From assembly GCA_009692745.1 (NCBI GenBank), contig SHYO01000013.1:1-41431 (forward strand): a DNA stretch of 41,431 nt, in the 5' to 3' direction. The notes below the pieces were generated by a model. That model did not search any database. It saw only the letters and a program-made list of their open reading frames with translations, and was not told the DNA's origin. The position numbers were made by a program, and so were the translations under genes. Position 1 is the stretch's first letter, and every line of letters begins with the position of its first letter. This document shows positions 4,152 through 37,169 of this stretch, piece by piece. This DNA is from Chloroflexota bacterium (GTDB lineage Bacteria > Chloroflexota > Anaerolineae > Epilineales > SHYO01).

Positions 4152-4233
4152 GGTCTCCTCCGAAGAACTTGAACGAACTCGTCTTTTACCATTATACCAC
4201 ACCCTGCTAACCGACACGCCCTTTGGCGACAGG

Positions 4234-4284
4234 GCAATCGCATTTAGCGGATTTCCTGGGAGCGCTCCCAGAAGATGCGATTGC
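4234..4284. repeat. nested inverted repeat
   Basis: The outer arms GCAATCGCAT (4234-4243) and ATGCGATTGC (4275-4284) enclose a perfect 16-bp palindrome CTGGGAGCGCTCCCAG (4256-4271). The left half recurs at 33074-33108 and the outer arm alone at 11073-11082. The inner arm CTGGGAGCGC is also the end sequence of the 63-bp units in the primase gene. This points to one dispersed palindromic family. It lies between divergent genes just before a promoter. Confidence 0.7.
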
Positions 4285-4299
4285 TTTGTTGGAATTGCT

Positions 4300-4328: not shown

Positions 4329-4519
4329 GAGAAGACCCCCCAACGCTATGCTTTGACCCGATGCCAGGGTAGTGGCGGGTGTGCTGCCCTCCCGCCTTTT
4401 GGCCGGAGCCGGGTGCTCTGGCAGCGCCGTCACTCTGCCAGTCGATTCCCCATTCAAAGAGTTTCCCATAAGCCGTGGCCCATGGGCCACACCGCCATTT
4501 CACAGGAGGAAGGAATTCC

Positions 4520-7135
4520 ATGCCAGCAAGTTGGTTATCGCCACAAAGAAGAATGTCCACTGCCATCATCGCCGTCCTGCTGGTCTTCTTGGCCGGCATC
4601 GGCGGCGTGGGGGCGCAGGGGCCGCGTCCCACGGGCGCCAGCAGCAACACCAGTATCAGCGCCGGCTGCCCCCCCGGCAACAGCTACGACTCGGGCTGTG
4701 ATGTCGACCATGACGGCGCCATCACGGTGGTGGACCTGCAGCGAGTGGCGGTGCGCTACAGCGCGACCGGCGCCTTCACCAGCGATGGCTGGCTGCTCAC
4801 CGGGAACAGCGACACCAGCCCCAGCACGAACTTCCTGGGCACCAGCGACTCCCAGCCGCTGGTCCTGCGCACCAACAACGTCGAGCGGCTGCGGCTGGAC
4901 AGCAGCGGCAAGTTGGGGATCGGCACCACCACGCCCAACGAGCAGTTGCAACTGACCGGCAACCTGCGCCTGCCGCCCACCACCGCCACCAGCGGCATCA
5001 TCCGCTCCGGCAGCGACACCCTGCTGCACACCTATGGGACGAGCAATTTCTTCGTCGGAGTGAATGCCGGTAACCTGACCATGACGGGCTCCCAAAATAC
5101 GGCCTCTGGCGCGTCTGCTCTCGCCTCCAACATCACGGGCTGCTGCAACACGGCCTCTGGCGCGTCTGCTCTCGCCTCCAACACCGACGGCTTAGGCAAC
5201 ACGGCCTCTGGCTCTGCTGCTCTCCGCTTCAACACCACGGGCAACTACAACACGGCCTCTGGATATCAAGCTCTCTACTTCAACACCACAGGCGGCTACA
5301 ACACGACCTCTGGCAAAGATGCTCTCTTCTCCAACACCACGGGCAGCCGGAATACAGCAGTGGGCTTTGGGGCAGGGTACACCGCGGCTCCCGCCAACGC
5401 CAATACCACAGGCTCGCACAACACCTTCCTCGGCTACAACGCCGGCCCTGCCACCAGTACCGAGTTGAACAACGCCATCGCCATCGGCTACAACGCCCTG
5501 GTAGGGGCCAGCAACGCCCTGGTGCTGGGGGGCACAGGGGTCGACGCCGTCAAGGTAGGCATTGGCACAACCACGCCGAATGAGCAGTTGGAGCTGACCG
5601 GCAACCTGCGCCTGCCGCCCACCAGCGCCACCAGTGGTATCATCAAATCCGGCAGCAGTACCCTATTGCACACCTATGGGTCGGGCAATTTCTTCGCCGG
5701 AGTGGACGCCGGCAACCTGACCATGTCGGGTGCCTTCAACACGGCCTCTGGCTATCAAGCTCTCACCGCAAACACCACAGGCAGCTACAACACAGCCTCC
5801 GGCTATCAAGCTCTCACCGCCAACACCACGGGCAGCTCCAACACGGCCTCTGGCCATCAAACTCTCAACTCCAACACCACGGGCAACTACAACACGGCCT
5901 CCGGCTATGCTGCTCTCGAATCCAACACCACAGGAAGCAATAACACGGCCTCCGGCTATGCTGCTCTCAACTCCAATACCACGGGCAGCAGCAACACGGC
6001 CTCTGGCAAGGGATCTCTCCAGTCTAACACCGAGGGCAGCGCCAACACAGCCTCTGGCGGTTCTGCTCTCCAGTCCAACACCACGGGCGGCTACAACTCG
6101 GCCTCTGGCTTTGCTGCTCTTGTCTCCAACATCGCGGGCAACTACAACACGGCCTCTGGCTATCAGGCGCTCTACTCCAACATTACGGGCACCAACAACA
6201 CGGCCTCTGGCAAAGATGCTCTCCAGTCCAACACCACGGGCAATGGCAACACCGCCGTAGGACGGGGGGCAGGGTACACCGTGACTCCCGCCAACGCCAA
6301 TACCACCGGCTCGAACAACACCTTCCTCGGTGCCCAAGCCGGCCCTGCCACCAGTGCCCAGTTGGACAACGCCACCGCCATCGGCACCAACGCCTTGGTA
6401 GGCGCTAGCAACGCCCTGGTGCTGGGGGGCACAGGCGCCTACACGGTCAATGTGGGCATCGGCTTGACCAATCCCACGTATCGCCTGCAACTGGCCGAAG
6501 ACTCGGCCGCTAAGCCCAGCGGCGGCTCCTGGACAAATCCTTCGGACCGCCGCCTGAAAGAAAATATCCAACCCTTCAGCGACGGCCTGAGCACGCTGGC
6601 GCGCATCGACCCGGTGCGCTACACCCTGAACCGCAAGGGCGGCATGCCCAAAGGCGCGCAGGGCATCGGCGTCATCGCTCAGGACGTGAAGGAGGCCATC
6701 CCCTACACCATTTCCACCTTCAAAGCCAGGCTGAATCCGGAGGATAAGAGCGAGACCGAGCTGTACAGCTTCGACAGCAGCGCCCTGACCTTCGTCACCA
6801 TCAACGCGGTGAAGGAGCTGAAGGCCGAGAACGATGCTCAGCAATCCCGCATTACGGCGCTGGAGCAGCAGAATCAGACACTGCAAGCACAGAATCAGGC
6901 GCTGGCAGTGCAAGTAGCGGCCCTGCAACAACAGCAGGGAACGCAACAGCAACAAACGGATGCCCTGGTCGCCCGGCTGGCGGCGCTGGAGAAGGCGGCT
7001 GGACAGAGTGCTGCCCAACCCGCTGCCCCAGGAAACGGCGGCCTGGCCGGCAACCTGCCCGGCGCCGGGGTGGTGCTGGGGGGGCTGCTGCTGGCAGGAC
7101 TGCTGCTGGGACCGCGCTTCCGCTCGGGGGGGTAA
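4520..7135 (+). CDS. secreted S74-chaperone surface protein with dockerin-like motif and head repeats
   Basis: An 871-residue exported protein. The start at 4520 has a strong AGGAGG/AAGGA ribosome site. A signal peptide covers residues 1-32 (likely cleavage after GVGA). An EF-hand loop DVDHDGAITVVD (61-72) resembles one half of a dockerin. The central region is a duplicated block with 5 and then 10 copies of a 17-residue repeat (consensus NTASGYQALxSNTTGxx), each block closing with an NTAVG...NTFLG module. A peptidase S74 domain starts at S675 (SDRRLK); in this family the Ser and the Lys five residues on (K680) cut the chaperone domain off after the fibre trimerises. Then come a Gln-rich coiled coil and a tail LPGAG-hydrophobic-RFR. 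Probably a trimeric surface fibre or adhesin. It is often called a tail fibre protein, but no phage genes are nearby. Confidence 0.85.
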   Translation: MPASWLSPQRRMSTAIIAVLLVFLAGIGGVGAQGPRPTGASSNTSISAGCPPGNSYDSGCDVDHDGAITVVDLQRVAVRYSATGAFTSDGWLLTGNSDTSPSTNFLGTSDSQPLVLRTNNVERLRLDSSGKLGIGTTTPNEQLQLTGNLRLPPTTATSGIIRSGSDTLLHTYGTSNFFVGVNAGNLTMTGSQNTASGASALASNITGCCNTASGASALASNTDGLGNTASGSAALRFNTTGNYNTASGYQALYFNTTGGYNTTSGKDALFSNTTGSRNTAVGFGAGYTAAPANANTTGSHNTFLGYNAGPATSTELNNAIAIGYNALVGASNALVLGGTGVDAVKVGIGTTTPNEQLELTGNLRLPPTSATSGIIKSGSSTLLHTYGSGNFFAGVDAGNLTMSGAFNTASGYQALTANTTGSYNTASGYQALTANTTGSSNTASGHQTLNSNTTGNYNTASGYAALESNTTGSNNTASGYAALNSNTTGSSNTASGKGSLQSNTEGSANTASGGSALQSNTTGGYNSASGFAALVSNIAGNYNTASGYQALYSNITGTNNTASGKDALQSNTTGNGNTAVGRGAGYTVTPANANTTGSNNTFLGAQAGPATSAQLDNATAIGTNALVGASNALVLGGTGAYTVNVGIGLTNPTYRLQLAEDSAAKPSGGSWTNPSDRRLKENIQPFSDGLSTLARIDPVRYTLNRKGGMPKGAQGIGVIAQDVKEAIPYTISTFKARLNPEDKSETELYSFDSSALTFVTINAVKELKAENDAQQSRITALEQQNQTLQAQNQALAVQVAALQQQQGTQQQQTDALVARLAALEKAAGQSAAQPAAPGNGGLAGNLPGAGVVLGGLLLAGLLLGPRFRSGG
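5096..5350 (+). repeat. 5 x 51-bp in-frame repeat (head block 1)
   Basis: Five tandem 51-bp units encode residues 193-277, each starting NTASG or NTTSG. The block is followed by a non-repeating NTAVG...NTFLG closing module. The period is exact, so copy number can change without breaking the frame. Confidence 0.9.
5738..6247 (+). repeat. 10 x 51-bp in-frame repeat (head block 2)
   Basis: Ten tandem 51-bp units encode residues 407-576 with the same consensus as block 1. The sequence before both blocks (GIGTTTPNEQL ... GNLTM) and after both (NTAVG ... NALVLGGTG) is duplicated too. The protein therefore arose by doubling a whole module, followed by unequal repeat growth. Confidence 0.9.
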
Positions 7136-7155
7136 GGCCAATATCGCCGCTGGTG

Positions 7156-7189
7156 CCCGGCGAGCCCGCTGCTTTCCAGGCTCGCCGGG
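7156..7189 (+). terminator. conserved hairpin downstream of the large S74 gene
   Basis: The arms CCCGGCGAGC (7156-7165) and GCTCGCCGGG (7180-7189) form a 10-bp stem with a 14-nt loop, 20 bp past the stop codon. The same hairpin follows the second complete S74 gene (11013-11050). No T-run follows, so it is either a terminator without a U-tract or an mRNA-stabilising stem. Confidence 0.5.
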
Positions 7190-7473
7190 TACTTCCCACC
7201 AGCAGCACAACCTTCGCCCCGCCAGCATAAGCTGCTGACAACCTGCGGGCCGCAGCCGGCCCGCCTCTGGTCCGCCCCGGTAAAGGCTTTGGTGGTTCGG
7301 ACGTGTCTAGCCAGCGTCGGAGACTTGGCGTCATCCGGCGCAGATGAATCTCAGTGTTAGCTTGTCTCATGGGATAATCGAAAAATGTGGTCTTGAACCT
7401 GGGTAGAAGCCGCCTGGTTTTTCTGTTATAATGGAGCTATATGATTATGACGAGAAGGCACGAGTAATAGACA
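7190..7473. other. spacer before the mntA/hepT module
   Basis: No gene is seen. The first part holds the 26-bp dispersed repeat (7220-7245). The second part becomes AT-richer and carries TATAAT at 7427-7432, a likely -10 for mntA. The only upstream hexamer at 17-bp spacing (TAGAAG, 7404-7409) is weak. Confidence 0.45.
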
Positions 7474-7779
7474 ATGAATGCTCAAATATCCATTTCAAAA
7501 CATAGGCTTGTTCCGTTTTGCCAAGAGCGAGGCATTCAATGGTTGGCCGTATTCGGTTCAGCATTGAGGGCGGACTTTCGCTCAGATAGCGATGTTGACG
7601 TGCTTGTCAGATTCGATCCAGATCGTATCCCAGGACTCTTAGGGATGGCTCGCATTGAGCGCGAGTTATCGGATCTGTTTGGGAAACGGAAAATCGATTT
7701 ACGTACGCCTGAGGACCTGAGTCGTTATTTTCGCCAACAAGTACTTGAACAGGCTGAGGTGCAGTATGCAGATGGATGA
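7474..7779 (+). CDS. mntA: MntA-type nucleotidyltransferase antitoxin
   Basis: A 101-residue minimal nucleotidyltransferase. The signature GSX10DXD is complete: G28-S29, then D40 and D42 ([15 protein letters not shown]), the metal-binding residues of the DNA polymerase beta fold. In characterised MntA/HepT (type VII) pairs, MntA adds AMP units to a Tyr of the HEPN toxin and so blocks it. The next gene overlaps its end by 14 bp, as expected for a coupled antitoxin-toxin pair. No good ribosome site precedes the ATG; GAGAAGG lies about 15 nt upstream. The module sits between a complete S74 gene and a 5'-truncated one, is less GC-rich than both, and was probably acquired. Confidence 0.85.
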
Positions 7780-8113
7780 TGAGATACGCCTGAGGCATAT
7801 GCTGGACGCTGCACGTGAGGCAAGGTCATTCATAGTTGGGCGAAAGCGTGCTGACTTGAATCAAGATCGGGTACTTGTGCTAGCCCTTGTTAAATCAGTG
7901 GAGATCGTTGGTGAAGCTGCATTCACGATGTCTGAAACAACGAAGGAGATGTCGCCAAATATTCCCTGGGCCGATATTATCGGAATGCGGCATCGCCTCG
8001 TTCATGCCTATTTCGATATTAATCTCGACGTTCTTTGGCAAACGGTGCAAAACGATCTGCCTACCTTAATTGCACAGATCAATCCACTGGTACCCCCAGA
8101 CAAGTCTTCATAG
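7766..8113 (+). CDS. hepT: HEPN-domain ribonuclease toxin HepT
   Basis: A 115-residue all-alpha HEPN protein (formerly DUF86). The catalytic RX4HXY motif is intact: R75, H80 and Y82 in RHRLVHAY. The Tyr is the residue AMPylated by MntA in studied systems. HEPN toxins act as homodimeric RNases. The start is ambiguous between ATG 7766 and ATG 7772; 7766 has AGG six bases upstream and is preferred. Its stop is immediately followed by sequence matching the inside of the S74 domain, so the 3' boundary of the acquired module lies right here. Confidence 0.85.
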
Positions 8114-8114
8114 C

Positions 8115-8603
8115 TTGATCCGGCCCTTCACCAACGGCCTCAGCACCCTGGCGCGCATCGACCCGGTGCGCTACACCCTGAACGGCAAGGGCGGCATGCC
8201 CCAGGGCGCGCAGGGCATCGGCGTCATCGCCCAGGATGCGAAGGACGCCATCCCCTACACCATCTCCACCTTCAAAGCCAGGCTGAATCCGGAGGATAAG
8301 GCAGAGACCGAGCTGTACAGCTTCGACAGCAGCGCCCTGACCTTCGTCACCATCAACGCTGTGAAGGAGCTGAAGGCCGAGAACGATGCACTAAAGCAGC
8401 GGGTTAGCGGTCTGGAACAGCAGAACCAGGCGCTGGCCGCCCGGCTGGCGGCGCTGGAGAAGGCGGCAGGACAGAGTGCTGCCCAACCCGTTGCCGCTGG
8501 AAACGGCGGCCTAGCCGGCAATCTACCCGGCGCCGGGGTGGTGCTGGGGGGGCTGCTGCTGGCAGGCCTGCTGCGGGGACCGCGCTTCCGCTCAGGGGGC
8601 TAA
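8115..8603 (+). pseudogene. 5'-truncated S74 surface protein gene
   Basis: From 8115 the reading frame matches the two complete S74 genes, beginning at IRPFTNGLSTLARIDPVRY and running through the S74 core, a shortened coiled coil and the tail LPGAG-hydrophobic-RFRSGG. Signal peptide, EF-hand, head region and the SDRRLK dyad are all missing. The homology break lies one or two bases after the hepT stop codon. The frame has no stops, so the loss looks recent. It may still serve as a donor of 3' ends for recombination. Translation from an upstream ATG inside hepT (8070) is possible but would give no export signal. Confidence 0.85.
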
Positions 8604-8688
8604 GGCCAATATCGCGGGGTCCATCCGGCTATCCAAAATGGCGGCCCGCAGTTGGGGCATCCGGTTGGCCAGGGTCGCCACGCTTGTA

Positions 8689-8709
8689 GGACAATTTGGA
8701 AAATTGTCC
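8689..8709. promoter_or_regulatory. inverted repeat, likely operator of the next TA pair
   Basis: Perfect 9-bp arms GGACAATTT and AAATTGTCC are separated by GGA. The repeat lies 32 bp upstream of the -35 box of the antitoxin promoter. Antitoxins with DNA-binding domains commonly repress their own promoter by binding such sites; that role here is inferred. Confidence 0.5.
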
Positions 8710-8740
8710 GTTCTTGTTCGTTGCGTTTCGCACCGCAAAC

Positions 8741-8769
8741 TTGTCTGGCAGTCAATTCTGAAGTATACT
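8741..8769 (+). promoter_or_regulatory. promoter of the antitoxin/PIN toxin pair
   Basis: -35 TTGTCT (8741-8746), a 17-bp spacer and -10 TATACT (8764-8769). This places the transcript start about 45 nt before the antitoxin ATG. Confidence 0.6.
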
Positions 8770-8819
8770 GGGTCTGTGGCGATTTCATCTTATCGCTTGA
8801 GACCAGGGAGCATCATCCA

Positions 8820-9137
8820 ATGGACAGAACAGCAGCCGAGTCAACACCGCATTACCGCGTGCAACTCGATCTTCCGCCAGAGCTATACCGATGGCTCATG
8901 GACGAAGCTGCGCGTCGCTCTGTACCCCTGGATCAGGTCGTCCGGCAGATGTTAGAGCGCGTTGCCCAAACAGAGAAGGTGGATTTTGACATTACTCAGA
9001 CCCTCACCTGGCAATTCTGTGGCGCGCTGGAAGTGTTTGAGCCAGACCTTGAACACATCGTTGGCCGCGATGCGCAGGGCCACGAAATCACCAATTACGC
9101 CGAGCATGTAGACGCCCTACTTTACCGAGGCAGTTAA
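8820..9137 (+). CDS. putative antitoxin of a PIN toxin
   Basis: A 105-residue protein directly before a PIN-domain toxin, whose ATG overlaps its stop codon (TAATG). The first 50 residues (YRVQLDLPPELYRWLMDEAARR, then SVPLDQVVRQML) have the strand-helix-helix pattern of ribbon-helix-helix or related DNA-binding antitoxins. The C-terminal half (TWQFCGALEVFEPDLEHIVG) is the likely toxin-binding part. The start at 8820 has GGGAG about nine bases upstream; the longer frame from 8652 would run through the promoter and operator. I do not recognise a named family with certainty. The role rests mainly on position, overlap and the promoter-operator layout. Confidence 0.7.
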   Translation: MDRTAAESTPHYRVQLDLPPELYRWLMDEAARRSVPLDQVVRQMLERVAQTEKVDFDITQTLTWQFCGALEVFEPDLEHIVGRDAQGHEITNYAEHVDALLYRGS

Positions 9138-9553
9138 TGGCCGAGGTCATTGCAGATACATCGGCCCTTATTGCCTTCTTCGTACGATCTGAAGCGCGTC
9201 ACCAGGATGCTCGCCAGTATATGGCGACGCATTCGCGTACACGTTGGTTGATCCTGGCTTCAGTCTTCGATGAGACGGTGACATGGTTTCGCGTCAAGGT
9301 TTCGCCGCAGGCCTCGATCACGATCGGCCGCATCCTGCGGGAAGAACATCGCTACGTTAACCTGTCCGACGATGACGATTCTGCCACTTGGGAAGCTTTT
9401 TGCCAGTATGACGATAAAGCTTGGAGCTATACCGACTGCTCGATCCTGGTAATGGCCAGGCGTCTGGGCATTTCGCAGGTTTTCGCTTTCGATGACCACA
9501 TCCGGCAGATGGCAGGCTTGGGAATTACGTCTGTGCCTGCGACGACGGTGTGA
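9137..9553 (+). CDS. PIN-domain toxin (VapC-like ribonuclease)
   Basis: A 138-residue PIN domain. The acidic metal-binding residues are present in order: D7 (IADTSAL), E46 (VFDETVTW), D100 (SYTDCSIL) and D119 (FAFDDHI). VapC-type toxins cut tRNA or rRNA and are held inactive by the antitoxin coded just upstream. The start codon shares one base with the antitoxin stop, implying translational coupling. It sits between the truncated and the second complete S74 gene. Confidence 0.85.
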   Translation: MAEVIADTSALIAFFVRSEARHQDARQYMATHSRTRWLILASVFDETVTWFRVKVSPQASITIGRILREEHRYVNLSDDDDSATWEAFCQYDDKAWSYTDCSILVMARRLGISQVFAFDDHIRQMAGLGITSVPATTV

Positions 9554-9660
9554 AGCACGCCGCCTGGCTACCTATCTACCCCAATCCCTTCAATTACAAC
9601 TTATCGCAAAACTACCCCAGAAGTAGATCACTCTAAACCATAATATAAGGAAGGAATTCC

Positions 9661-10992
9661 ATGCCAGCCAATTGGTTATCGCCACAAAGAAGAATGTCCA
9701 TGGCCATCATGGTTGTCCTGCTAGTGTTCTTGGCCGGCATCGGCGGCGTGGGGGCGCAGGGGCCGCGTCCCACGGGAGGAACCGGCGCTGCCAGCATCAG
9801 CGCCGGCTGCCCCTCCGGCAGCGGCTACGACTCGGGCTGCGATGTCGACCATGATGGCGCCATCACGGTGGTGGACCTGCAGCGGGTGGCGGCGCGCTAC
9901 ACCGCCACCGGCGCCTTCACCAGCGATGGATGGCTGCTGACTGGGAACAGCGGCACGATTCCCACCACCAACTTCCTGGGCACCAGCGACGCCCAGCCGC
10001 TCATTATCCAACCCGGCAGCGGTAAAATGGGGATTGGGACGACAGGGAATCTAGGCGGAAAACTTTCCATTTATAGCAATATTAGCACCGCTAATATTCC
10101 TCCCTTATATTTGATTTCAACAAGTGGAGAGACAGGTGTGCTTAATCGTGAAGCAGAAATCCGCTTGCAAAATAATTCAAATACGAATGGGGCATTCGCT
10201 GGAATTCAAAATAACGATGCAAGTGGGGATGTGACCGCTAGTATAGACTTCATAAATGTAGATCAAGTATATGCTGGAGCAATTCGCTTCATAACGAGGT
10301 CAGGGGAATCGGTCTATGGAGAACGACTGCGCATTGATCAAAATGGCAACGTGGGCATCGGTTTGACCAACCCCGTCTACCAGCTCCAACTCTCCACCGA
10401 CTCCGCCGCCAAGCCCACCAGCAACGCCTGGACCGTCGTCTCCGACCGCCGCCTGAAAAACGACATCCGGCCCTTCACCGACGGCCTCAGCACCCTGGAG
10501 CGCATTGATCCGGTGCGCTACACCCTCAACGGCAAGGGCGGCATGCCCCAGGGCACCCAGGGCATCGGCGTGATTGCCCAGGATGTGAAGAACGCTATCC
10601 CCTACACTATCTCCACATTCAAAGCTAAACTGGAGCCGGGCGACAAAGAAGCCACCGAGCTGTACAGCTTCGACAGCAGCGCCCTGACCTTCGTCACCAT
10701 CAACGCCGTCAAGGAGCTGAAGGCGCAGAACGATGCCCAGCAATCCCGCATCACAGCGCTGGAGCAGCAGAATCAGACCCTGCAAGCCGAGAAGGAGGCG
10801 CAGCAGCAGCAGATGCAGTCTATGGAGGCCCGGCTGGCGGCATTGGAGAAGGCGGCGGGGCAGAGCGCTGCTCCGTCAGCTGCCGCCGGAAACGGCGGCC
10901 TGGCCGGCAACCTGCCCGGCGCCGGGGTGGTGCTGGGGGGGCTGCTGCTGGCAGGACTGCTCCTGGGACCGCGCTTCCGCTCAGGGGGCTAA
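9661..10992 (+). CDS. secreted S74-chaperone surface protein, short variant
   Basis: A 443-residue protein with the same frame as the 871-residue one: signal peptide 1-32, EF-hand loop DVDHDGAITVVD at 61-72, S74 domain from S261 (SDRRLK, dyad S261/K266), coiled coil and tail LPGAG-hydrophobic-RFRSGG. The ribosome site and start (AAGGAATTCC then ATG) are the same as in the large gene. The middle is unrelated: residues about 133-226 have no NTASG repeats and are coded by clearly AT-richer DNA (10058-10340). The shared ends with a foreign centre suggest exchange of a passenger segment. The S74 domain should trimerise and then cut itself off, as known for endosialidase-type chaperones. Confidence 0.85.
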   Translation: MPANWLSPQRRMSMAIMVVLLVFLAGIGGVGAQGPRPTGGTGAASISAGCPSGSGYDSGCDVDHDGAITVVDLQRVAARYTATGAFTSDGWLLTGNSGTIPTTNFLGTSDAQPLIIQPGSGKMGIGTTGNLGGKLSIYSNISTANIPPLYLISTSGETGVLNREAEIRLQNNSNTNGAFAGIQNNDASGDVTASIDFINVDQVYAGAIRFITRSGESVYGERLRIDQNGNVGIGLTNPVYQLQLSTDSAAKPTSNAWTVVSDRRLKNDIRPFTDGLSTLERIDPVRYTLNGKGGMPQGTQGIGVIAQDVKNAIPYTISTFKAKLEPGDKEATELYSFDSSALTFVTINAVKELKAQNDAQQSRITALEQQNQTLQAEKEAQQQQMQSMEARLAALEKAAGQSAAPSAAAGNGGLAGNLPGAGVVLGGLLLAGLLLGPRFRSGG

Positions 10993-11012
10993 AACCAATA
11001 TCGCCGCTGACG

Positions 11013-11050
11013 CCCGGCGAGCTCGCCCACCGCTTGCCGGGCTCGCCGGG
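11013..11050 (+). terminator. conserved hairpin after the short S74 gene
   Basis: CCCGGCGAGC (11013-11022) pairs with GCTCGCCGGG (11041-11050). It is the same stem as after the large S74 gene, at the same distance from the stop codon, so the 3' flank was duplicated with the gene. Confidence 0.5.
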
Positions 11051-11121
11051 ACCGTCCGGCTCTCTAGAAAGGCGCAATCGCATCTTAGCTGGGTAGTACC
11101 TGCTCAGCTTTTTTGCTATAA

Positions 11122-11152
11122 TTGATTCAATCCTCGGGTTTTCGGTTATACT
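11122..11152 (+). promoter_or_regulatory. promoter of the UPF0175/DUF3368 pair
   Basis: TTGATT (11122-11127) and TATACT (11147-11152) are 19 bp apart. A second TATAAT lies at 11117-11122. Either could start transcription 60-100 nt before the antitoxin ATG at 11219. Confidence 0.4.
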
Positions 11153-11218
11153 ATTGGACATGAGGAGATGGATAGTTGAAGCGCTCGACAAACAATCAAT
11201 GGTATAGACGGAGTAATT

Positions 11219-11527
11219 ATGACAAGTACAGCCGTTATCGTAGAAACACAAATACCTGGAGATGTATATTCAACGTTGAAGGCTCAAGGGTTTCATCGAG
11301 AAGACCTGGTTGAAAAAAGTAAGCGTTTGCTCGCGCTGCACTTCTTTCGCGAGCATATACTGTCACTGGGGCAAGCTGCACGCCTTTCCGGGATGGGTTA
11401 CTGGTCATTTGTAGAATTTTTGTCTGGAAATGACGTGCCAGTAGTAGATCTTGACGATGAAGAGTTAGCAGATGAATTCTCTTCGGTCAGTCGGATTTCT
11501 CAACAATTGCCTGATGCCCAGGGATGA
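11219..11527 (+). CDS. UPF0175 family antitoxin
   Basis: A 102-residue protein matching UPF0175: a helix-rich N-terminus, then LALHFFREHILSLGQAARLSGMGYWSF, with the AARLSGM helix-turn-helix-like segment typical of the family. UPF0175 genes usually precede a DUF3368 PIN-like gene and are taken as antitoxins. The same pairing is seen here, with an ATGA overlap. GGAG five bases before the ATG supports the start. The DNA is AT-richer than the flanking S74 gene, which suggests transfer. Confidence 0.85.
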   Translation: MTSTAVIVETQIPGDVYSTLKAQGFHREDLVEKSKRLLALHFFREHILSLGQAARLSGMGYWSFVEFLSGNDVPVVDLDDEELADEFSSVSRISQQLPDAQG

Positions 11528-12021
11528 TGCCTTCTCTACGTGTTGTTGTTTCCGATGCAACTCCATTAATTGCTCTGTCAAAGATAGAACAACTTCACCA
11601 TCTTGTAGACCTGTTTGGTGAAATTTATGTGCCGCAAGCTGTCTATGAAGAAGTAAATTTCTCCGGAAAAGGACGTAGTGGCGCGCAAGATATCGAACAA
11701 GCGGACTGGATAATTGTTCGTGAGGTAAAAGACCAGTCTAGAGTCGATTATTTGCTCACCCAACTTGGTATTGGCGAAGCGGAGGCGATTATTCTAGCCC
11801 AAGAAATCGATGCAGGTTTAGTGCTTATAGATGAGCGCAAAGCACGAGCCGTTGCCCAACGTCTCGGCTTTGAAGTTATCGGAACAGCAGGTCTCTTGCT
11901 CTTGCTGAAAGAGCAAGGGAAAATCTCACCGGTTCGTCCACTTCTGGACAGACTCCGTTCCCTAAACTTCAGGCTTGGTAATCGAGTGTATGATCAGCTC
12001 GTGTCTCGAGATGGAGAATAA
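11524..12021 (+). CDS. DUF3368 PIN-like toxin
   Basis: A 165-residue DUF3368 protein, a PIN-like nuclease fold. The opening VVSDATPLIALSKI holds the first acidic residue. GIGEAEAIILAQEI is the family's conserved central block, and LVLIDERKARAVA carries the next acidic pair. It starts within the stop codon of the UPF0175 gene (ATGA; a second ATG follows at 11527). It is the likely RNase toxin of the third toxin-antitoxin module in this array. Confidence 0.85.
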   Translation: MMPSLRVVVSDATPLIALSKIEQLHHLVDLFGEIYVPQAVYEEVNFSGKGRSGAQDIEQADWIIVREVKDQSRVDYLLTQLGIGEAEAIILAQEIDAGLVLIDERKARAVAQRLGFEVIGTAGLLLLLKEQGKISPVRPLLDRLRSLNFRLGNRVYDQLVSRDGE

Positions 12022-13762: not shown

Positions 13763-15851
13763 TCAGAGCAATATCTCGTTTTCATCTGCCGCTTCAGATT
13801 TCTCATCCTCACGTGCATTAACTTTCAGATGCAATAGAACCAGGCTATCACCGGCTATCTTTACCGTCTTGGTACTCCTTCCAGCGTTACTGCTCGCAAT
13901 CACCTCCAGATCGGCCAGTTGGGCGTAGAGCGCTTTGTTGCTGATGCGCCCCAATGCGTCCGGGCCGCCCAGCACGCGCTCTATGGCCTGGCGCGCCAGG
14001 TCGGGCAGCAGGTAGACGGTGCCATCCTCCCCAGCCCAGCCCAGGATGCGGTCGCGGGAGACGTCCTCGTAGAGCCGGTCGCCGCTGGGGCTCAGCCCCC
14101 TGGGCACCAGCACCATGTTCCCATCGCTGCGCAGCGCGGAGATGCCCATGCCGTAGGGCAAGAGCACCATCTTGCCGCTGCCCAGCAGCTCGCGCAGCGC
14201 CGACAGGTAGCGGGCGGCTTCCAGCGCCTCCGTGGTAGAGTGCGCCATGGCCCCGGCGACTTGCTGCAGCCCCTCGCGGTGCTCCGCCCGGTAGGCGCGG
14301 AAGAATTCCCCGAGCTGGGGATGGAGGCTGAGCGCCTGCCAGGTCAGGCTGTTGGTCGCCAGGTTGGTGGCGATGCGAAAGGCGTTCACCGTGTGCGGCT
14401 GCTGGGCCTTGAGGTGGGCGCTCCAGGCGCGGCGTAGCGGCTCGAACTGCAGCGCCAGCGGGGCCAGGCTCTCGCGGCCGGCGGCCCCTTCCAGCCAATC
14501 CAGCCACAGCCCGCCAACCGCCGCCAGGTGGCCCGCGGTCGCGCCTGCCTGGGCGGCGGAAAGGTGCGCTTCGACCCCCGGCGCCGGCCGCTCCATGCGG
14601 ATCACCAGCACCCGCGCCAGGCTGGCGGGATCATGGTCGGGCACATCCTCGCCGGTGACCAGCGGCCAGCAGAAGATGGGTTCGTCTCTTTGATCTCGGC
14701 GGCGCGGCTCAGGCGGTCCTTTTCGCCCCCTTCCAGCAGATTGTGCATCAGGTTGATGAAGCCGCGCGCCCCGTCCCCCGTGCTGGGCTTGTAATTGTCG
14801 ATCAACAGCGGCAGATCGTGGGCATAGGTCGCCAGCGCCATAATGGCGTTGCGTGTAGCCCCTTCGCCCCACTTGATCAGCAGGTCATCGCGCAGGAAGC
14901 CGGCGCCGTAGAGGCTCATGCCGCATTGGGCCAGCGAGGTTTTAAAGGTGCCGCTGCGCCCGGTGATAAACAGCCCGTAGCGCTCGTTGCGCCAATCCAG
15001 CAGCGCTGCCAGCGGCCCCTGGAAGAGGAAGGCGGCGATTACCGCCGCCTTGCCGGCCGGCGCCAATTGGAAGAGGGATTCCAGCGCCGCCAGCCCGCTG
15101 CGCCAATCTCCCCGCCCGTCGATATCATACGGGAGCTTGCGCATCAGTTGCAGGCTCACTCCCTCCGGCTCCCGGCCGGGGATTAGAAAGCTGGCGCCGT
15201 GCCAGCCGGTGCGGCTGAACCTTTGACGGCGGCGCAGGTCGCCATCGGTCAGGGTGCTGATGGCCGGCGCCAGGTGCTCGGCCATGCCGGCCATCACCGT
15301 GCCCTTGGCGCCCGCCGCGCCGACCAGGGCGGCCCGCAAGCGGCGCGGATCGCTGAACTCCTCCGCCGGCAGCTCCAGCTTGAAGGGGTACTGCGCCGTG
15401 GTCTGCCCGGCCAGGGTGAACCAGCGCATCCCGTCCTCCGCCACCGCCTCCTCGACGATGCGGGCGGTGAAGTTGCAGATCGGCGCCTGCTGCAGCTCCC
15501 CGCCGGCGGTGATATGCGTCACCACCATGCGCCCCTCGGCAATGGCATACGGCCAGTGCGGGTGCTGCTCGCGCCAGGCCGAGTGCTGCCCCGGCTGCGG
15601 CATGGGCAGCGCTTGCTGCGCCTCCTTCACCGCCTGGCGCCAGCGGTCCACGCTTTTGTGCGACAGGCCCAGCGCGCGGAGTTTGTGCCCCAGGCGCAGC
15701 AGGTCCGGCGTGTCGAGGTAGGCCGCCTGCCGGATGAGTTCGATAGCTCTGGCCTCCACCGCCAATTTATCCGCCGCGCCGCCCGCCGCCAGGCCGCCCA
15801 GATCAGCCAGCAGCGCCTCGACGCCGGCCATGGGTACCTGGCTTGACGCCC

Positions 15852-15914
15852 CTGGGAGCGCGAGTGTCTCGCTCGTATGCGGCACACCGGCGCCCAGGAT
15901 GGTCGCGCTCCCAG
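15852..15914. repeat. 63-bp palindromic unit 1, in frame
   Basis: Ends in CTGGGAGCGCGA and TCGCGCTCCCAG (12-bp inverted arms). It adds exactly 21 codons to the primase linker. It is one of three units spaced 111 and 105 bp apart. Confidence 0.85.
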
Positions 15915-15962
15915 GAGGGTGCTGCGGCGCGCCATCCCCGTTAGCCGCGATCGCCCCGCCCC

Positions 15963-16025
15963 CTGGGAGCGCGAGTGTCTCACTCGCATGCGGCGCACCA
16001 GCGCCCAGGATGGTCGCGCTCCCAG
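15963..16025. repeat. 63-bp palindromic unit 2, in frame
   Basis: Same length and same 12-bp inverted arms as unit 1. The interior differs by a few bases. On the minus strand it codes for ATILGAGAPHASETLALPG-like residues. Confidence 0.85.
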
Positions 16026-16067
16026 TAGGGTGCTGCGGCGCGCCATCCTCGTTAGCCGCGATCGCCC

Positions 16068-16130
16068 CTGGGAGCGCGAGTGTCTCACTCGCATGCGGCG
16101 CACCGGCGACCAGGATGGTCGCGCTCCCAG
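16068..16130. repeat. 63-bp palindromic unit 3, in frame
   Basis: Third unit with the same ends. It is linked to unit 2 by a 42-bp spacer that is also similar between copies, so the whole 105-111-bp block was probably duplicated in tandem after one insertion. Confidence 0.85.
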
Positions 16131-16949
16131 TAGGGTGCTGGGCGGCGGCCGGGTAGCGCATCACGCTGTGGGCGATTAGCGCCACCTCGCCGGCCGGCAG
16201 CGGCGGGCGGCACCTGGCCTGGTTCTCGGCCGCCAGAGCCGCCAGGATGGCGTCTGCGCTCATGCCGCGCCGCCGCATCCAGCCGCCCAGGCTGACCAGG
16301 GCATTGTTGCGCCCGCCGGCGGAAATGATGTCGCCGCCAGGACCCCGCCCTGGTGCGCGTTCGTGCGGGGTGGCCGCCGGACTGGCAGCGCGGCTGAACA
16401 GCTCCAGCAGGCGCGGCGGCAAGGGGGCGGGAGCCAGGTGCTGCGGCCCGCGCCCCTCGGCCCAGGCGTACTGCCGGTCGCTGGCATGCCGGCTGGGTGG
16501 GGCGACAAACTGGCCGCCGAAGCCGCGCACGTTGACGCCGCCGGGCAAGGGCGCATCGGTGTTGCGCAGGTGCAAGCCCGGCGGCATGGTGTAGATCAGG
16601 TGCTCCCCCCCGCCGCCGGTCAAACTGGTGATGGTAGCCCTTTCCGCCGCGTCCAGTTCCAACGCGCCGCCGTGGTAGGTATCGATGTCGATCACCACCA
16701 GGCCGGATTTACCGGCGGCGATGCCGATATTGGCCTGCGGCCAGCGCTGCCACCAGGCGCTGATGGTCCGCGCGTCTGTGCTGGCGGCGTGCTCCCAAGC
16801 GGCGATACGCGGGTGTTTGCCGCTGCTCGAGCACTCTTTCCCCCGGCTGCAGCTACAGATGCCGTTTGCGGGGTTGTGCAGCGGGAGGACGTACCAGCCG
16901 AGCCTTCCGTACCATAAAGCTGCTCGCATAAGCTGTGTCTGGTCAGATG

Positions 16950-17165
16950 TCATGCCTGGCCCCCTCCCCCTTTCACGCCAAGAGATGTATTGTTAGACGT
17001 ATAATCGTGAGCATGGGGCAAAATTTTTTCCAGTAACTCCGGAACCTCCAGCAAGCCCTGCAGCGCCAGCGTGGTGAAGCTATGGCCGCTGTAGCCCAGC
17101 TTACCCGCGAATTGGTACCAGCGCTGCTGCATCACGCCCTCCGCCGAAAGTATCTTGCGCGCCAT
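16950..17165 (-). CDS. small hypothetical protein upstream of the primase-like gene
   Basis: A 71-residue protein (MARKILSAEGVMQQRWYQFAG, then EVPELLEKILPHAHDYTSNN). AGGAGG before the ATG at 17165 gives a strong start. Its TGA overlaps the ATG of the primase-like gene, so it is the first gene of that operon. It may be a small DNA-binding or replication accessory protein; I do not recognise it. A TATAAT on the minus strand near 17202-17207 would serve as its -10. Confidence 0.65.
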   Translation of the reverse strand: MARKILSAEGVMQQRWYQFAGKLGYSGHSFTTLALQGLLEVPELLEKILPHAHDYTSNNTSLGVKGGGGQA

Positions 17166-33023: not shown

Positions 33024-33242
33024 AGAAAATGTAAACAGTTACTAATGGCGGCAGCATGTTGAGGGACTCAACCGGCAATCGCATCTGAATGGATTTCCTG
33101 GGAGCGCTTGCCATCGATACGATATGTGAGTAAGATTGGGGTTCAATGAGTACCTGGCCGGTGAGCAAAGAGCCAGCAAGACCAGCCAGGATCTGGCTGG
33201 CGTCTATCGTTTATTTAGAAAACCCGAGCGGTAGGTTATGCC
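33024..33242. other. control region before the STAND gene
   Basis: 33074-33108 repeats the left half of the nested inverted repeat at 4234-4284. A promoter candidate follows at 33108-33136. A hairpin CCAGCCAG/CTGGCTGG with a three-base loop (33182-33200) lies in the leader. No other gene is seen. Confidence 0.5.
33108..33136 (+). promoter_or_regulatory. promoter candidate of the STAND/WD40 gene
   Basis: -35 TTGCCA (33108-33113), a 17-bp spacer and -10 TAAGAT (33131-33136), about 100 nt before the start codon. The -35 box overlaps the end of a dispersed repeat. Confidence 0.45.
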
Positions 33243-36200
33243 ATGGTCGATTCACCCTACAAGGGGCGCGCAGCCTATGATGAGCAGGATGCCCGGCTCT
33301 TCTTTGGCCGAGAGAGAGAGCTAGAGCGCGTCCTTGCCAGTTTGACCTCCACAAAACTCACCGTGCTTTTTGGCGCCGCGGGCGCCGGAAAAACCTCCTT
33401 GCTGCGAGCGGGGGTGATGGCTGAGGGTACTCAGCAGCCGGCTGAGTATACTCAGCACGCGCCAGACTACGCTGTAATTTATTTCGACGCCTGGGAGGGA
33501 GATGCTTTAGCGGCGTTGGAACAGGCCATTGCGTATACCACGGCAGCGGCCACAAGCAGCGGGGGATCTGAAACCAATGTATCCGTAGCCCAAAGTGCGC
33601 CGTCCTTGGGTAGCGACGCGCAGGGAAAGCCCGCCAGCAACGGGCATTTGAGCGCCGCGCCCGCCAATCTTACGGCTGCCTTGCAGGCGTGGACAGATCA
33701 AACCAGCGGTACGCTGCTGATCATGCTGGACCATTTCGAAAGGTATTTCCAGTACCATGACCAGGAGGATGGTCACGGCACTTTTGCGGTGGAGTTCCCG
33801 CGCGCCGTGCGCCAGCCCGGCTTGCGCGCCAATTTCCTGATCTCTGTGCGCGAGGGCGCTTTGGAAGATGAAGGGATTTTCACCGGGCGCATTCCCCAGT
33901 TTTTCAATCATTGCATGACGTTAGACCATCTGGATAGGGAAGCGGCGGCGCGGGCCATCGAGGCGCCGGTGCAGGTTTACAACCAGCTCCATACCGCCGA
34001 TGGGGAGCGGGTAGACATCTTGCCGTCCCTGGTGCAGCAAATTATTCAGCAACTCAGCCCCGCGCCGCTAGCGGCGCAGCCCAGCCGAGGAGCACCCAGC
34101 GGGAACCTCGCGCCAGAACAGATCCTCCCTGCCCGGATTCAGGGCTGGATGGTACAAGTCGTGATGGCGCACCTCTGGCAGGCAGAATGGGAGATGATGG
34201 CGCTGTGGTCCGGCGGCAGAACCGTCGGCCCGCGGGCCTTACGCGTGGAAACGTTAAACCGCCTGGGGCAGGTAGCCGGTATTCTGCAAAATCACTTGAA
34301 CCAGGTGATGGAGCGCCTGGCGCCGGCGCAGCAGGTGGTAGCCGCCGCGCTATTCCATTTTCTGGTATCACCTTCGGGCACCCGCGCTGCCCCTACGGTA
34401 GCCGACCTGGCTGAATATACCGGATTTGCGGCAGAGGATATTTTACCCGTGCTGGAGATCCTGACAGCGGAGCAGGCGCGGATAGTGGCGCCTATAGTCA
34501 GTCTACCCACCCAACCAGGCAAATCCGTTTACACGGTCGCCGATGATCTTCTGGTAGGAGCGATTTTGCGGTGGCGCCAGACCTATCTGCAGCACTGCGC
34601 CCAGATGGCGGCGGCAGAGCAGCAGGCCCAAGCACGCACCCAGGCAGCCGGCCGGCAGGGATTGAGGCGCTGGCGCCTCTTTCGCACCCGCTGGAGTAGG
34701 GGCCGCCTCTCCCTAGGACTGGCTACGCTGCTGCTCCTGGCGGCTATCACAATGGGCTTCTTGCGACTCATTAACGAGGCCACACAACTAAGCGCTGGCG
34801 TAGTGCGGTATAACACCGATGTGAATACCTTACGGAGTCAAGCAGTGCGCCTGTGGGAGACAATTTTATCGACCCAGGACGAGGCGCGGGCTTATCGGAA
34901 AATAGTGCTTTCGCAAAACCTGGCTGCCAATGCCCTTTCCCAGCGCACCAAGAATCCCGATTTGAGCACCCTGCTGGCCATTGAGGCGGCCAATACCGCC
35001 CCTACGCGCCAGGCAGAGCAGGCGCTGCGGACGGTGCTGCTCAATCCGGCGCGGGTTATCCTCACCGGCCACACGGCCGGGGTAAATCACGCTAGCTTTA
35101 GCCCCGATGGCAAGCTGGTGGTGACAGCCGGACTGGATAGTACGGCAAGGATATGGGAGGCGCAATCGGGAAAGATCATAGCCACCCTGAACCATAATGA
35201 TGTGGTGAACGAGGCCACATTCAGCCCGGATGGCCGGTTTGTGGCTACCGCGAGCAATGATGGTTTTGTGCGGATATGGGAGATGGATACGGGCAAGTTT
35301 ATTACCGAGCGCCCCAACAGCGACGTGGCCAACTCGGTGGCATTCAGTCCCGATGGGAAAACCGTGGTGATGGCCAGCTTCAATGGACTGGCTTCGGTTT
35401 GGGAAGCCGCCAGCCGCAATTTCATAGCCGAGCTGCGCGGCCATACCAGTTGGATCTTCAGTGCGGCCTTCAGCCCCGATGGCAAATATGTGGTGACGTC
35501 CAGCCGGGATTACACTGCCAGAGTCTGGGACGTTGCCAGTGGCAAAAGCAGCGCAGAACTCAAAGGGCACACCGCCCCCGTGACCGGCGCCGTGTTCAGT
35601 CCCGACGGAAGACTGATCGTGACCGCCAGCAACGATGGCACAGCTCGATTGTGGGATGCAGGCAGTGGCCAGAGTGTTGCTGAGCTACGCGGGCACACGG
35701 GACCGGTTACCCGCGCTCTCTTTAGCCCGGATGGGACGCTTATCGCTACTGCCAGTACAGATAGCAGCGCCAGGATTTGGGAAATTAGTACGGGTAAGTA
35801 TGTGGCCGAGCTACGCGGTCATGCAGATACGATCAATGGCATCGACTTCAGCCCGGATGGCAAGCTGCTGGTCACGGCCAGCTACGACAAAACCGCCCGC
35901 GTCTGGGATGCTGCCACCGGCCGCCCCTTCGTGGTGCTAGAGGGACACAGCGGGCGGGTAAACAGTGCCGCCTTCAGCGCCAACGGCAGGCTGATCATTA
36001 CCGCCAGCAGCGACGGCACGGCCCGCATATGGGATCTGACAGCCCACCTGAACCAGGTTGTGCTGCAGGGACAAGATGGTCCGGTGACCAATGCTGCCTT
36101 TAGCCCTGACAGCCAGATGATTGCCACGAGCAGTATCGATGGCACCAGCCGGACCTGGCAGACTAACGGTCTGGCGCTGGCTACGTCGCACAAACACCTC

Positions 36201-37169
36201 AGCCAGGTGAATAACGCCACTTTCAGCCCTGATGGCAAACTGGTGGTCACAGCCAGCGATGACGAATCGGCCCTGATCTGGGAAGCGAGCACCGGCAACC
36301 CCGTGGCCCAACTGGGATCTGTGCCCGGCACAGCAGGCCATCGGGACGCGGTGAATCATGCGGAATTCAGCCCGGATGGAAGCTTTGTAGTCACTGCTAG
36401 CCGGGATGGCACGGCCAGAATTTGGGATCTCACCGGCAAGACGGTGGCGGAATTGGCCGGACATACGGGGCCGGTATCCACCGCCCATTTCAGCTTCGAC
36501 GGCAAGCTGGTGGTTACAGCCAGCTTTGACCGCACCGCGCGCGTCTGGGATGCGCATAGCGGGCAGATTGTGGCTGTGCTACAGGGCCATACTGGCACCG
36601 TGGTCAATGCTATCTTTAGCTCCGATGGGACGTGGGTCGTCACAGCCAGTTGGGATAACACCGGCCGCATCTGGAATTCCCAGACCGGCGAAAGTCTGGC
36701 CGAGCTGCGCGGCCACCAGGGCCAGGTGGTAAGCGCTCAATTCAGCCCCAATAACCAGTTGGTCGCGACGGCCAGTTGGGATCATACCGCCCGTATCTGG
36801 GACGCCAAAACAGGGCGCAGCATCATGGAGCTGCGCGGCCATACCGGCTCGATTAACGCCCTCGCTTTTAGTCCCAACGGCAGATTTTTAGCCACCGCCA
36901 GCGCCGACAGTACTGCGCGTATCTGGGATATTGACACCGGAGAAAGCCTGGTCGAATTACGCAACCACGCCGGGCCGGTGAACCAGGTGACCTTCAGCCC
37001 CAATGGGAATTTACTCCTAACCGCCAGCCAGGACCAGAGCGCCAGAGTTTACGTCTGTATTGTTTGCAGCCCGGTTAAGACGTTGGTGGCTGCCGCCCAG
37101 GGCCAGGTGCGGCGCGATTTGACCCCGGCAGAGAGGGAGCGCTTTGTGACCCTCGCCCCCCTGCAGTAG
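33243..37169 (+). CDS. nSTAND1-type NTPase with one membrane helix and 16 WD40 repeats
   Basis: A 1308-residue protein. It begins almost directly with the STAND NTPase: SPYKGRAAYDEQDARLFFGR, Walker A GAAGAGKTSLL (44-54) and Walker B LLIMLDHFERYF. A basic stretch and one membrane helix follow near 490-512 (LGLATLLLLAAITMGFL), then a linker and 16 WD40 repeats (about 605-1270; consensus GHTxxVxxAxFSPDGKxVVTASxDxTARIWD), enough for two propellers. STAND proteins act as ligand-triggered switches with the repeats as sensor. No effector domain is seen at the N-terminus. With one helix, ATPase and propellers would lie on opposite sides of the membrane. Two GCTGAG palindromes lie in frame (EGTQQPAEYTQ) just after Walker A. 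The start has only a weak ribosome site. Confidence 0.88.
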   Translation: MVDSPYKGRAAYDEQDARLFFGRERELERVLASLTSTKLTVLFGAAGAGKTSLLRAGVMAEGTQQPAEYTQHAPDYAVIYFDAWEGDALAALEQAIAYTTAAATSSGGSETNVSVAQSAPSLGSDAQGKPASNGHLSAAPANLTAALQAWTDQTSGTLLIMLDHFERYFQYHDQEDGHGTFAVEFPRAVRQPGLRANFLISVREGALEDEGIFTGRIPQFFNHCMTLDHLDREAAARAIEAPVQVYNQLHTADGERVDILPSLVQQIIQQLSPAPLAAQPSRGAPSGNLAPEQILPARIQGWMVQVVMAHLWQAEWEMMALWSGGRTVGPRALRVETLNRLGQVAGILQNHLNQVMERLAPAQQVVAAALFHFLVSPSGTRAAPTVADLAEYTGFAAEDILPVLEILTAEQARIVAPIVSLPTQPGKSVYTVADDLLVGAILRWRQTYLQHCAQMAAAEQQAQARTQAAGRQGLRRWRLFRTRWSRGRLSLGLATLLLLAAITMGFLRLINEATQLSAGVVRYNTDVNTLRSQAVRLWETILSTQDEARAYRKIVLSQNLAANALSQRTKNPDLSTLLAIEAANTAPTRQAEQALRTVLLNPARVILTGHTAGVNHASFSPDGKLVVTAGLDSTARIWEAQSGKIIATLNHNDVVNEATFSPDGRFVATASNDGFVRIWEMDTGKFITERPNSDVANSVAFSPDGKTVVMASFNGLASVWEAASRNFIAELRGHTSWIFSAAFSPDGKYVVTSSRDYTARVWDVASGKSSAELKGHTAPVTGAVFSPDGRLIVTASNDGTARLWDAGSGQSVAELRGHTGPVTRALFSPDGTLIATASTDSSARIWEISTGKYVAELRGHADTINGIDFSPDGKLLVTASYDKTARVWDAATGRPFVVLEGHSGRVNSAAFSANGRLIITASSDGTARIWDLTAHLNQVVLQGQDGPVTNAAFSPDSQMIATSSIDGTSRTWQTNGLALATSHKHLSQVNNATFSPDGKLVVTASDDESALIWEASTGNPVAQLGSVPGTAGHRDAVNHAEFSPDGSFVVTASRDGTARIWDLTGKTVAELAGHTGPVSTAHFSFDGKLVVTASFDRTARVWDAHSGQIVAVLQGHTGTVVNAIFSSDGTWVVTASWDNTGRIWNSQTGESLAELRGHQGQVVSAQFSPNNQLVATASWDHTARIWDAKTGRSIMELRGHTGSINALAFSPNGRFLATASADSTARIWDIDTGESLVELRNHAGPVNQVTFSPNGNLLLTASQDQSARVYVCIVCSPVKTLVAAAQGQVRRDLTPAERERFVTLAPLQ
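33420..33456. repeat. two GCTGAG palindromes inside the STAND gene
   Basis: GCTGAGGGTACTCAGC (33420-33435) and the perfect palindrome GCTGAGTATACTCAGC (33441-33456), in frame and five bases apart. The perfect form recurs at 37459-37474. Confidence 0.9.

Follow-up and report, generated by a model that had tools for sequence, protein, structure and literature searches.

The window analysed here, a stretch of 41,431 nucleotides, is the whole contig C142 of a draft genome (G000; 4.37 Mb, 83% complete). A primase gene lies on its minus strand, with the Prim-Pol (12–179), PriCT_1 (211–267) and DUF927 (559–756) domains recognised by Pfam in one frame (14602..16953). Between the last two domains, at 15852–16130, there are three units of 63 bp, whose 12-bp inverted ends (CTGGGAGCGCGA/TCGCGCTCCCAG) are perfect in every case, as an earlier note on this DNA had described; the note also held that the units are in frame and of a length that keeps it, and the segment indeed lies in a single open frame. 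The insert begins 13 bp past the final codon matched by PriCT_1, and the ~96 residues that it encodes are enriched in Ala, Gly and Pro. Near the primase, the window encodes several proteins similar to S74 endosialidase chaperones or tail fibres (4475–12021), and purine-synthesis genes are found on the other side of the primase, from 22030.

Each 63-bp unit is a double hairpin, referred to here as the core, and the cores alternate with sequences that match the right part of an outer shell enclosing the full intergenic copies of the same repeat family. On the plus strand, core copy 1 (15852..15914; 84.5 bits with the covariance model (CM) described below), which is diverged from the other two, is followed by a 48-bp right-shell copy (15915..15962), core copy 2 (15963..16025; 89 bits), a second right-shell copy of 42 bp (16026..16067; z 9.4, 0/500 shuffles) and core copy 3 (16068..16130; 90.1 bits), which is 97% identical to copy 2. 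Before the host gene resumes there is TAGGGTGCTG (16131..16140), a leftover of a third right-shell copy that agrees with shell copy 2 in its first 10 bases. The single-stranded fold energies of the units lie 3–5 SD below those of shuffled sequences (z −3.1 to −5.3), and the window contains 10 occurrences of the arm CTGGGAGCG, where 0.9 would be expected, a count never reached by shuffles.

The first right-shell copy agrees with the intergenic right shell at 31 of 44 positions (z 10.7, 0/500 shuffles), and the BLAST alignment of the element on contig C213 runs on through it. In the shuffle test, no significant shell match was detected in the DNA to the left of the first core or to the right of the third core past the first 10 bases of the remnant. 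Thus, the repeated unit is not the 63-bp core taken as such in the earlier note; it is the core joined to the 42–48 bp of right shell (z about 9–11), 105–111 bp in all, present in 2.7 copies that are 94–97% alike. Because the two in-gene spacers resemble each other (39 of 42 positions) as well as the shell, a single insertion followed by tandem duplication of this unit explains the primase copies better than the three separate 63-bp insertions envisaged before, and three independent events were rejected on these grounds.

The absence of the segment from related primases, proposed earlier as a check, was found in homologues from five other genomes (G201, G254, G271, G032 and G378), which have a short linker or none and share 37–50% identity over the common domains. 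These are distant homologues, so that the exact empty site is not visible in them; viral contigs and plasmids contained no close orthologues of the primase, only distant ones.

Two layers of a dispersed repeat family

Our searches confirmed the expectation that further copies would be found elsewhere in the genome. A search with the exact arms recovered more 63-bp copies on contigs C16, C26, C213 and C214, along with shorter variants; the CM, built from eleven copies, gave clear matches at 38 sites of G000, with E-values down to 1e-16, and BLAST with one full copy found 40 sites. With the shell and insertion sequence (IS) junction searches included, the dispersed palindromic family amounts to ~60 sites, its cores ranging from 40 to 84 bp. 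Judging from the sequences, the interior of the family is a mosaic of exchangeable stem-loops. No Rfam family matched at the gathering threshold, and a lax search hit only a neighbouring tRNA.

Two further copies lie on the plus strand of the window itself. The collapsed palindrome at 4256–4271, previously thought to stand alone, is real and belongs to a short intergenic copy of the outer element (4230..4288), in which the shell encloses a collapsed core, CTGGGAGCGCTCCCAG. The other is a half copy (33076..33107), consisting of a left shell and CTGGGAGCGC, upstream of the gene at 33243 (33243–37169), whose 1308-aa product contains 15 or more WD40 repeats. Elsewhere in the genome, for instance at L024, L031, L049 and L050, the core hairpins are supplemented or exchanged for other hairpin modules, CCCCGAACTCCGTTCGGGG being one of them.

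A full intergenic copy is ~134 bp long and nested, with the core placed between CAGGGCAATCGCATCTTAATGGATTTC and GACGGTTCTGCAGTGCGACATCCAAATTAGATGCGATTGCCCTG, and its outer shell is bounded by terminal inverted repeats of 15 bp (TIRs; CAGGGCAATCGCATC) and flanked by 10-bp target duplications. The duplications were assessed at lengths 4 to 15 in the 12 copies with both ends readable: flank identity averages 0.56 at length 10 and 0.14–0.32 at every other length, and a duplication with at least 8 of 10 matching bases is present in 5 of the 12 copies, compared with 0 of 132 mismatched control pairs. A further copy, L024, has a 10-bp duplication that is perfect but offset by a single base. With its TIRs, a target duplication of fixed length and no coding capacity, the full element qualifies as a miniature inverted-repeat transposable element (MITE). 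Shells without a core exist at C134 and C140, and many cores occur without a shell; thus, the shell is best regarded as a separate MITE, and the core as its cargo or as an insertion within it. The 10-bp duplications suggest that the shell was presumably moved by a DDE-type transposase. A search with the TIR pattern found no transposase-bearing copy among the ends that could be read, the assembly being broken at repeats. As a guess, the parent of the shell might belong to the ISAs1 family, with its CAGGG ends and 8–10-bp duplications.

Conservation of the core and its RAYT-borne relatives

The core consists of two head-to-head hairpins, each a ~25-nt unit with a CTGGGAG foot. Among 60 relatives, the CM strongly matches one of the same order (G006; 30 rows at about 20 places, in a variant form) and two others weakly. 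A scan of the genome collection with the core motif extended the distribution to Planctomycetota, Armatimonadetes and Chloroflexaceae, with single matches in other phyla; binning of metagenome-assembled genomes (MAGs) may err for such single matches, and we therefore rely on the genomes with several copies. No core was found in viral contigs or in plasmids.

In other phyla, the copies keep the architecture and differ in the sequences of the hairpins, with compensatory base changes. In an alignment of 25 copies from at least five genomes, folded into a three-helix structure, 96.6% of the cells are paired, 9 of the 20 pairs have changed on both sides, and the covariation score was reached by 0 of 500 shuffles; sliding the partners, as a control, lowers pairing to at most 44%. 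Judged by fold z and covariation, the core, like REPINs, comprises two inverted units able to fold as one hairpin. Every aligned copy has CTGGGAG at its foot, rather than a GTAG or CGTC tag.

We compared the core model with the Y1-transposase loci of several genomes and found matches beside all 3 Y1 genes of G396, the Planctomycetota MAG PL25a_bin.47, and beside none in G000. Each of the three G396 genes is flanked on both sides, in inverted orientation, by CTGGGA-CGCG with a hairpin (L185, 207–897; L184, about 1171–1835; L183, 1409–2083). The two proteins that were scanned score above the NCBIfam cut-off for the REP-associated tyrosine transposase (RAYT), and the third matches the L185 protein at E 1e-69. 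In the aligned sequences, CTGGGA, CGCG and the hairpin geometry are common to the G396 transposon ends, the gene-less copies found alongside them in G396 and the two ends of the window unit; the repeat is thus of the same type as ends flanking a Y1/HUH gene, as in TIRtrons. Since the same two ends enclose RAYT genes in G396, the core is most likely what is left of a RAYT (HUH/Y1) transposon after loss of the gene.

A search for the cognate transposase in the core-carrying genomes found three Y1 genes in G000, all with other flanks, and no Y1 gene in G006 or G398, these assemblies being incomplete. Two of the G000 Y1 proteins have no phmmer match to the G396 type, the third gene is flanked by ordinary GTAG-type repeats, and no RAYT adjoins the element in G000, which seems to have no matching enzyme. 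Given the incomplete assemblies, the G000 element is claimed as a probable descendant of a RAYT transposon and not as an active member. The canonical GTAG-type REPs (GTAGGTGCGGTTTTCCAACCGCAC) at L021 (1215–1310 and 1920–1950), which flank a different RAYT gene of G000, form a REP system of their own with no relation to the core.

Origin of the primase segment

We consider it probable that the primase segment represents part of a nested element that is not autonomous, in which a core of RAYT type is contained in a ~134-bp MITE shell, and that this element entered the gene once and was then duplicated. The core would have arisen by the joining of two RAYT transposon ends without the gene, head to head, each with its CTGGGAG foot and hairpin, and would have been carried within the shell, whose TIRs and 10-bp duplications point to a DDE transposase as the presumable mover. 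One copy may then have entered the primase in the linker that immediately follows PriCT_1, oriented and sized such that the frame was kept, and slippage or unequal crossing-over could have multiplied the core with its right shell into the 2.7 copies that make up the Ala/Gly/Pro-rich linker. The family with its structure and covariation, the 10-bp duplications, the RAYT-borne form in Planctomycetota, the likeness of the spacers to the shell and the lack of the segment in distant homologues can be read from the sequences themselves; the identity of the moving enzymes, the order of these events and a linker that is tolerated or neutral are what we infer. The left shell is missing at the primase copy and the in-gene shell is GC-shifted, which places the first insertion event beyond reconstruction.

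How much meaning should be attached to the preserved frame depends on the state of the host gene. The homologue from G378, with a continuous frame of 810 aa, matches the window in two frames, with a switch near 14677–14690, ~1.2 kb downstream of the insertion; beyond the break, tblastn places the homology in another frame of the minus strand (13763..14676), as far as about 13814. Accordingly, the insertion might sit in a decaying primase gene, its kept frame being a matter of luck and of no functional meaning, a reading that we take as a serious contender, if one that we do not favour. The break pattern is consistent with one missing base beside a C-run, a single-base event that in a draft MAG may be an assembly error; furthermore, some 780 codons of the primase are open apart from this break, and the 48-bp and 42-bp spacers differ by 6 bp, a multiple of three. 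Thus, the primase may be either a broken gene or the product of a draft-assembly error at this place, and any claim of a functional linker is limited by the break.

Alternatively, the repeat could be purely of the REPIN type, with a RAYT acting in trans as its sole mover and the shell being a degenerate flank copied along with it. Indeed, the core has the REPIN architecture, occurs without the shell both in G000 and in other phyla, and has RAYT-borne counterparts at the transposon ends in G396. However, the 10-bp duplications flank the ends of the shell, shells exist without the core, and no matching RAYT was found in G000, making this scenario improbable.

Less probable still is a family of coding palindromes comparable to the Rickettsia elements, that is, selfish DNA fitted to genes by its length and frame. 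The in-frame insertion at an inter-domain linker speaks for such a family, and some properties of the element agree with it: all six frames are free of stops in each of the four 63-bp cores examined, whereas only 5–33 of 300 shuffles are open in all six, and the modal element of 134 bp plus its 10-bp duplication makes 144 bp, or 48 codons. Given cores open in six frames and a length divisible by three, an in-frame landing needs little luck. Nevertheless, a simple codon model applied to 40 copies placed none but the three primase copies within genes, and all 37 others are intergenic (15 between co-directional genes, 12 between divergent and 3 between convergent genes, and 7 at contig ends), so that, with the primase copies counted once, a single site of the 38 tested is genic. 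Other genomes yielded candidate genic copies, among them L165 and L102, but each of these fell either upstream of the actual start codon or within an open reading frame lacking domain support. Full elements, moreover, frequently contain stops and vary in length modulo three, which, like the 40–84-bp range of the cores, does not fit a family length adapted to coding sequence, as had been proposed. The family shows no sign of preferring genes, and transposon biology accounts for the primase segment better than a coding palindrome does. Finally, an ordinary repetitive linker that resembles the intergenic palindromes by chance, conceivable inasmuch as Ala/Gly/Pro-rich tandem repeats are common in linkers, is refuted by the family search with its CM E-values, by the three perfect pairs of inverted ends and by the homologues that lack the segment, and is practically untenable.

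Relation to known mobile elements

The component parts of the element are of known kinds. In TIRtrons, an HUH/Y1 transposase gene lies within inverted, partly self-complementary ends, of which gene-less dimers exist as well (PMC3733652); the ends around the Y1 genes of G396 and the gene-less dimers in that genome are alike in this respect, and the differences are the CTGGGAG foot, which the main text of PMC3733652 does not mention, and the gene-less form of G000, which is orphaned and located inside a second mobile element. With the REP/REPIN/BIME repeats and their RAYTs (PMC3116915, PMC6006769), the family shares the inverted hairpin pair, the foot 5′ of the hairpin, the mostly intergenic location and the high copy number, but it lacks the GTAG or CGTC tag and numbers about 60 sites instead of hundreds. 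Bacterial MITEs (PMC10969869) are likewise short and non-autonomous, with TIRs, target duplications (10 bp here) and an intergenic bias; the window element differs in carrying a RAYT-type double hairpin as cargo.

The Rickettsia palindromic elements, put forward at the outset as the precedent, remain an analogue, and the well-known extreme, of an in-frame palindrome in a gene, compared here by their features. As cited in PMC10969869 from Ogata 2000/2002, they lie in genes in about half of the cases, and in many genes, unlike the present family with its one genic site; the closer kin are palindromes borne by RAYT or TIRYT transposons and MITEs with 10-bp duplications. The suggestion that the family is undescribed holds in part: a literature search by sequence motif returned only unrelated primer and promoter sequences and no published name, and the CTGGGAG foot, the cross-phylum RAYT link and the nesting in a MITE with 10-bp duplications appear undescribed in the searchable literature, whereas REPs inserted in frame within tnpA_REP genes (subclass 2.4), as well as REPs in replication and repair genes, have been reported before (PMC3116915, PMC6006769).

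More tentatively, and at less than even odds, mini-transposons of RAYTs with the CTGGGAG foot could form an undescribed family that has spread among phyla and can persist without its own transposase inside a DDE-type MITE; its stop-free core would be tolerable in genes and could give rise to new protein linkers by tandem duplication. If our main reading of the segment is right, there would be a widespread and apparently unnamed repeat, CTGGGAG...CTCCCAG, tied to a specific RAYT transposase, and one non-autonomous element carried by another, with separate marks for each layer, the hairpin foot and covariation for the core and the 10-bp duplications for the shell. The primase would then be a clear case of an intergenic repeat turned into a multi-copy protein linker of a replication enzyme, in agreement with the REPs described previously in genes for replication and repair.

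The family hairpins themselves are a site of insertion. At 12 of 16 left-end junctions, located at contig ends of G000 where the assembly breaks (L145–L160; C2, C5, C40, C41, C94, C98, C159, C180, C185, C199 and C217), an IS with the ends AATGGCACTAAGATTTG is inserted within them; its N- and C-terminal pieces gave no NCBIfam match. This placement resembles that of the IS elements that target REP palindromes, e.g., ISPpu9 (PMC8450116).
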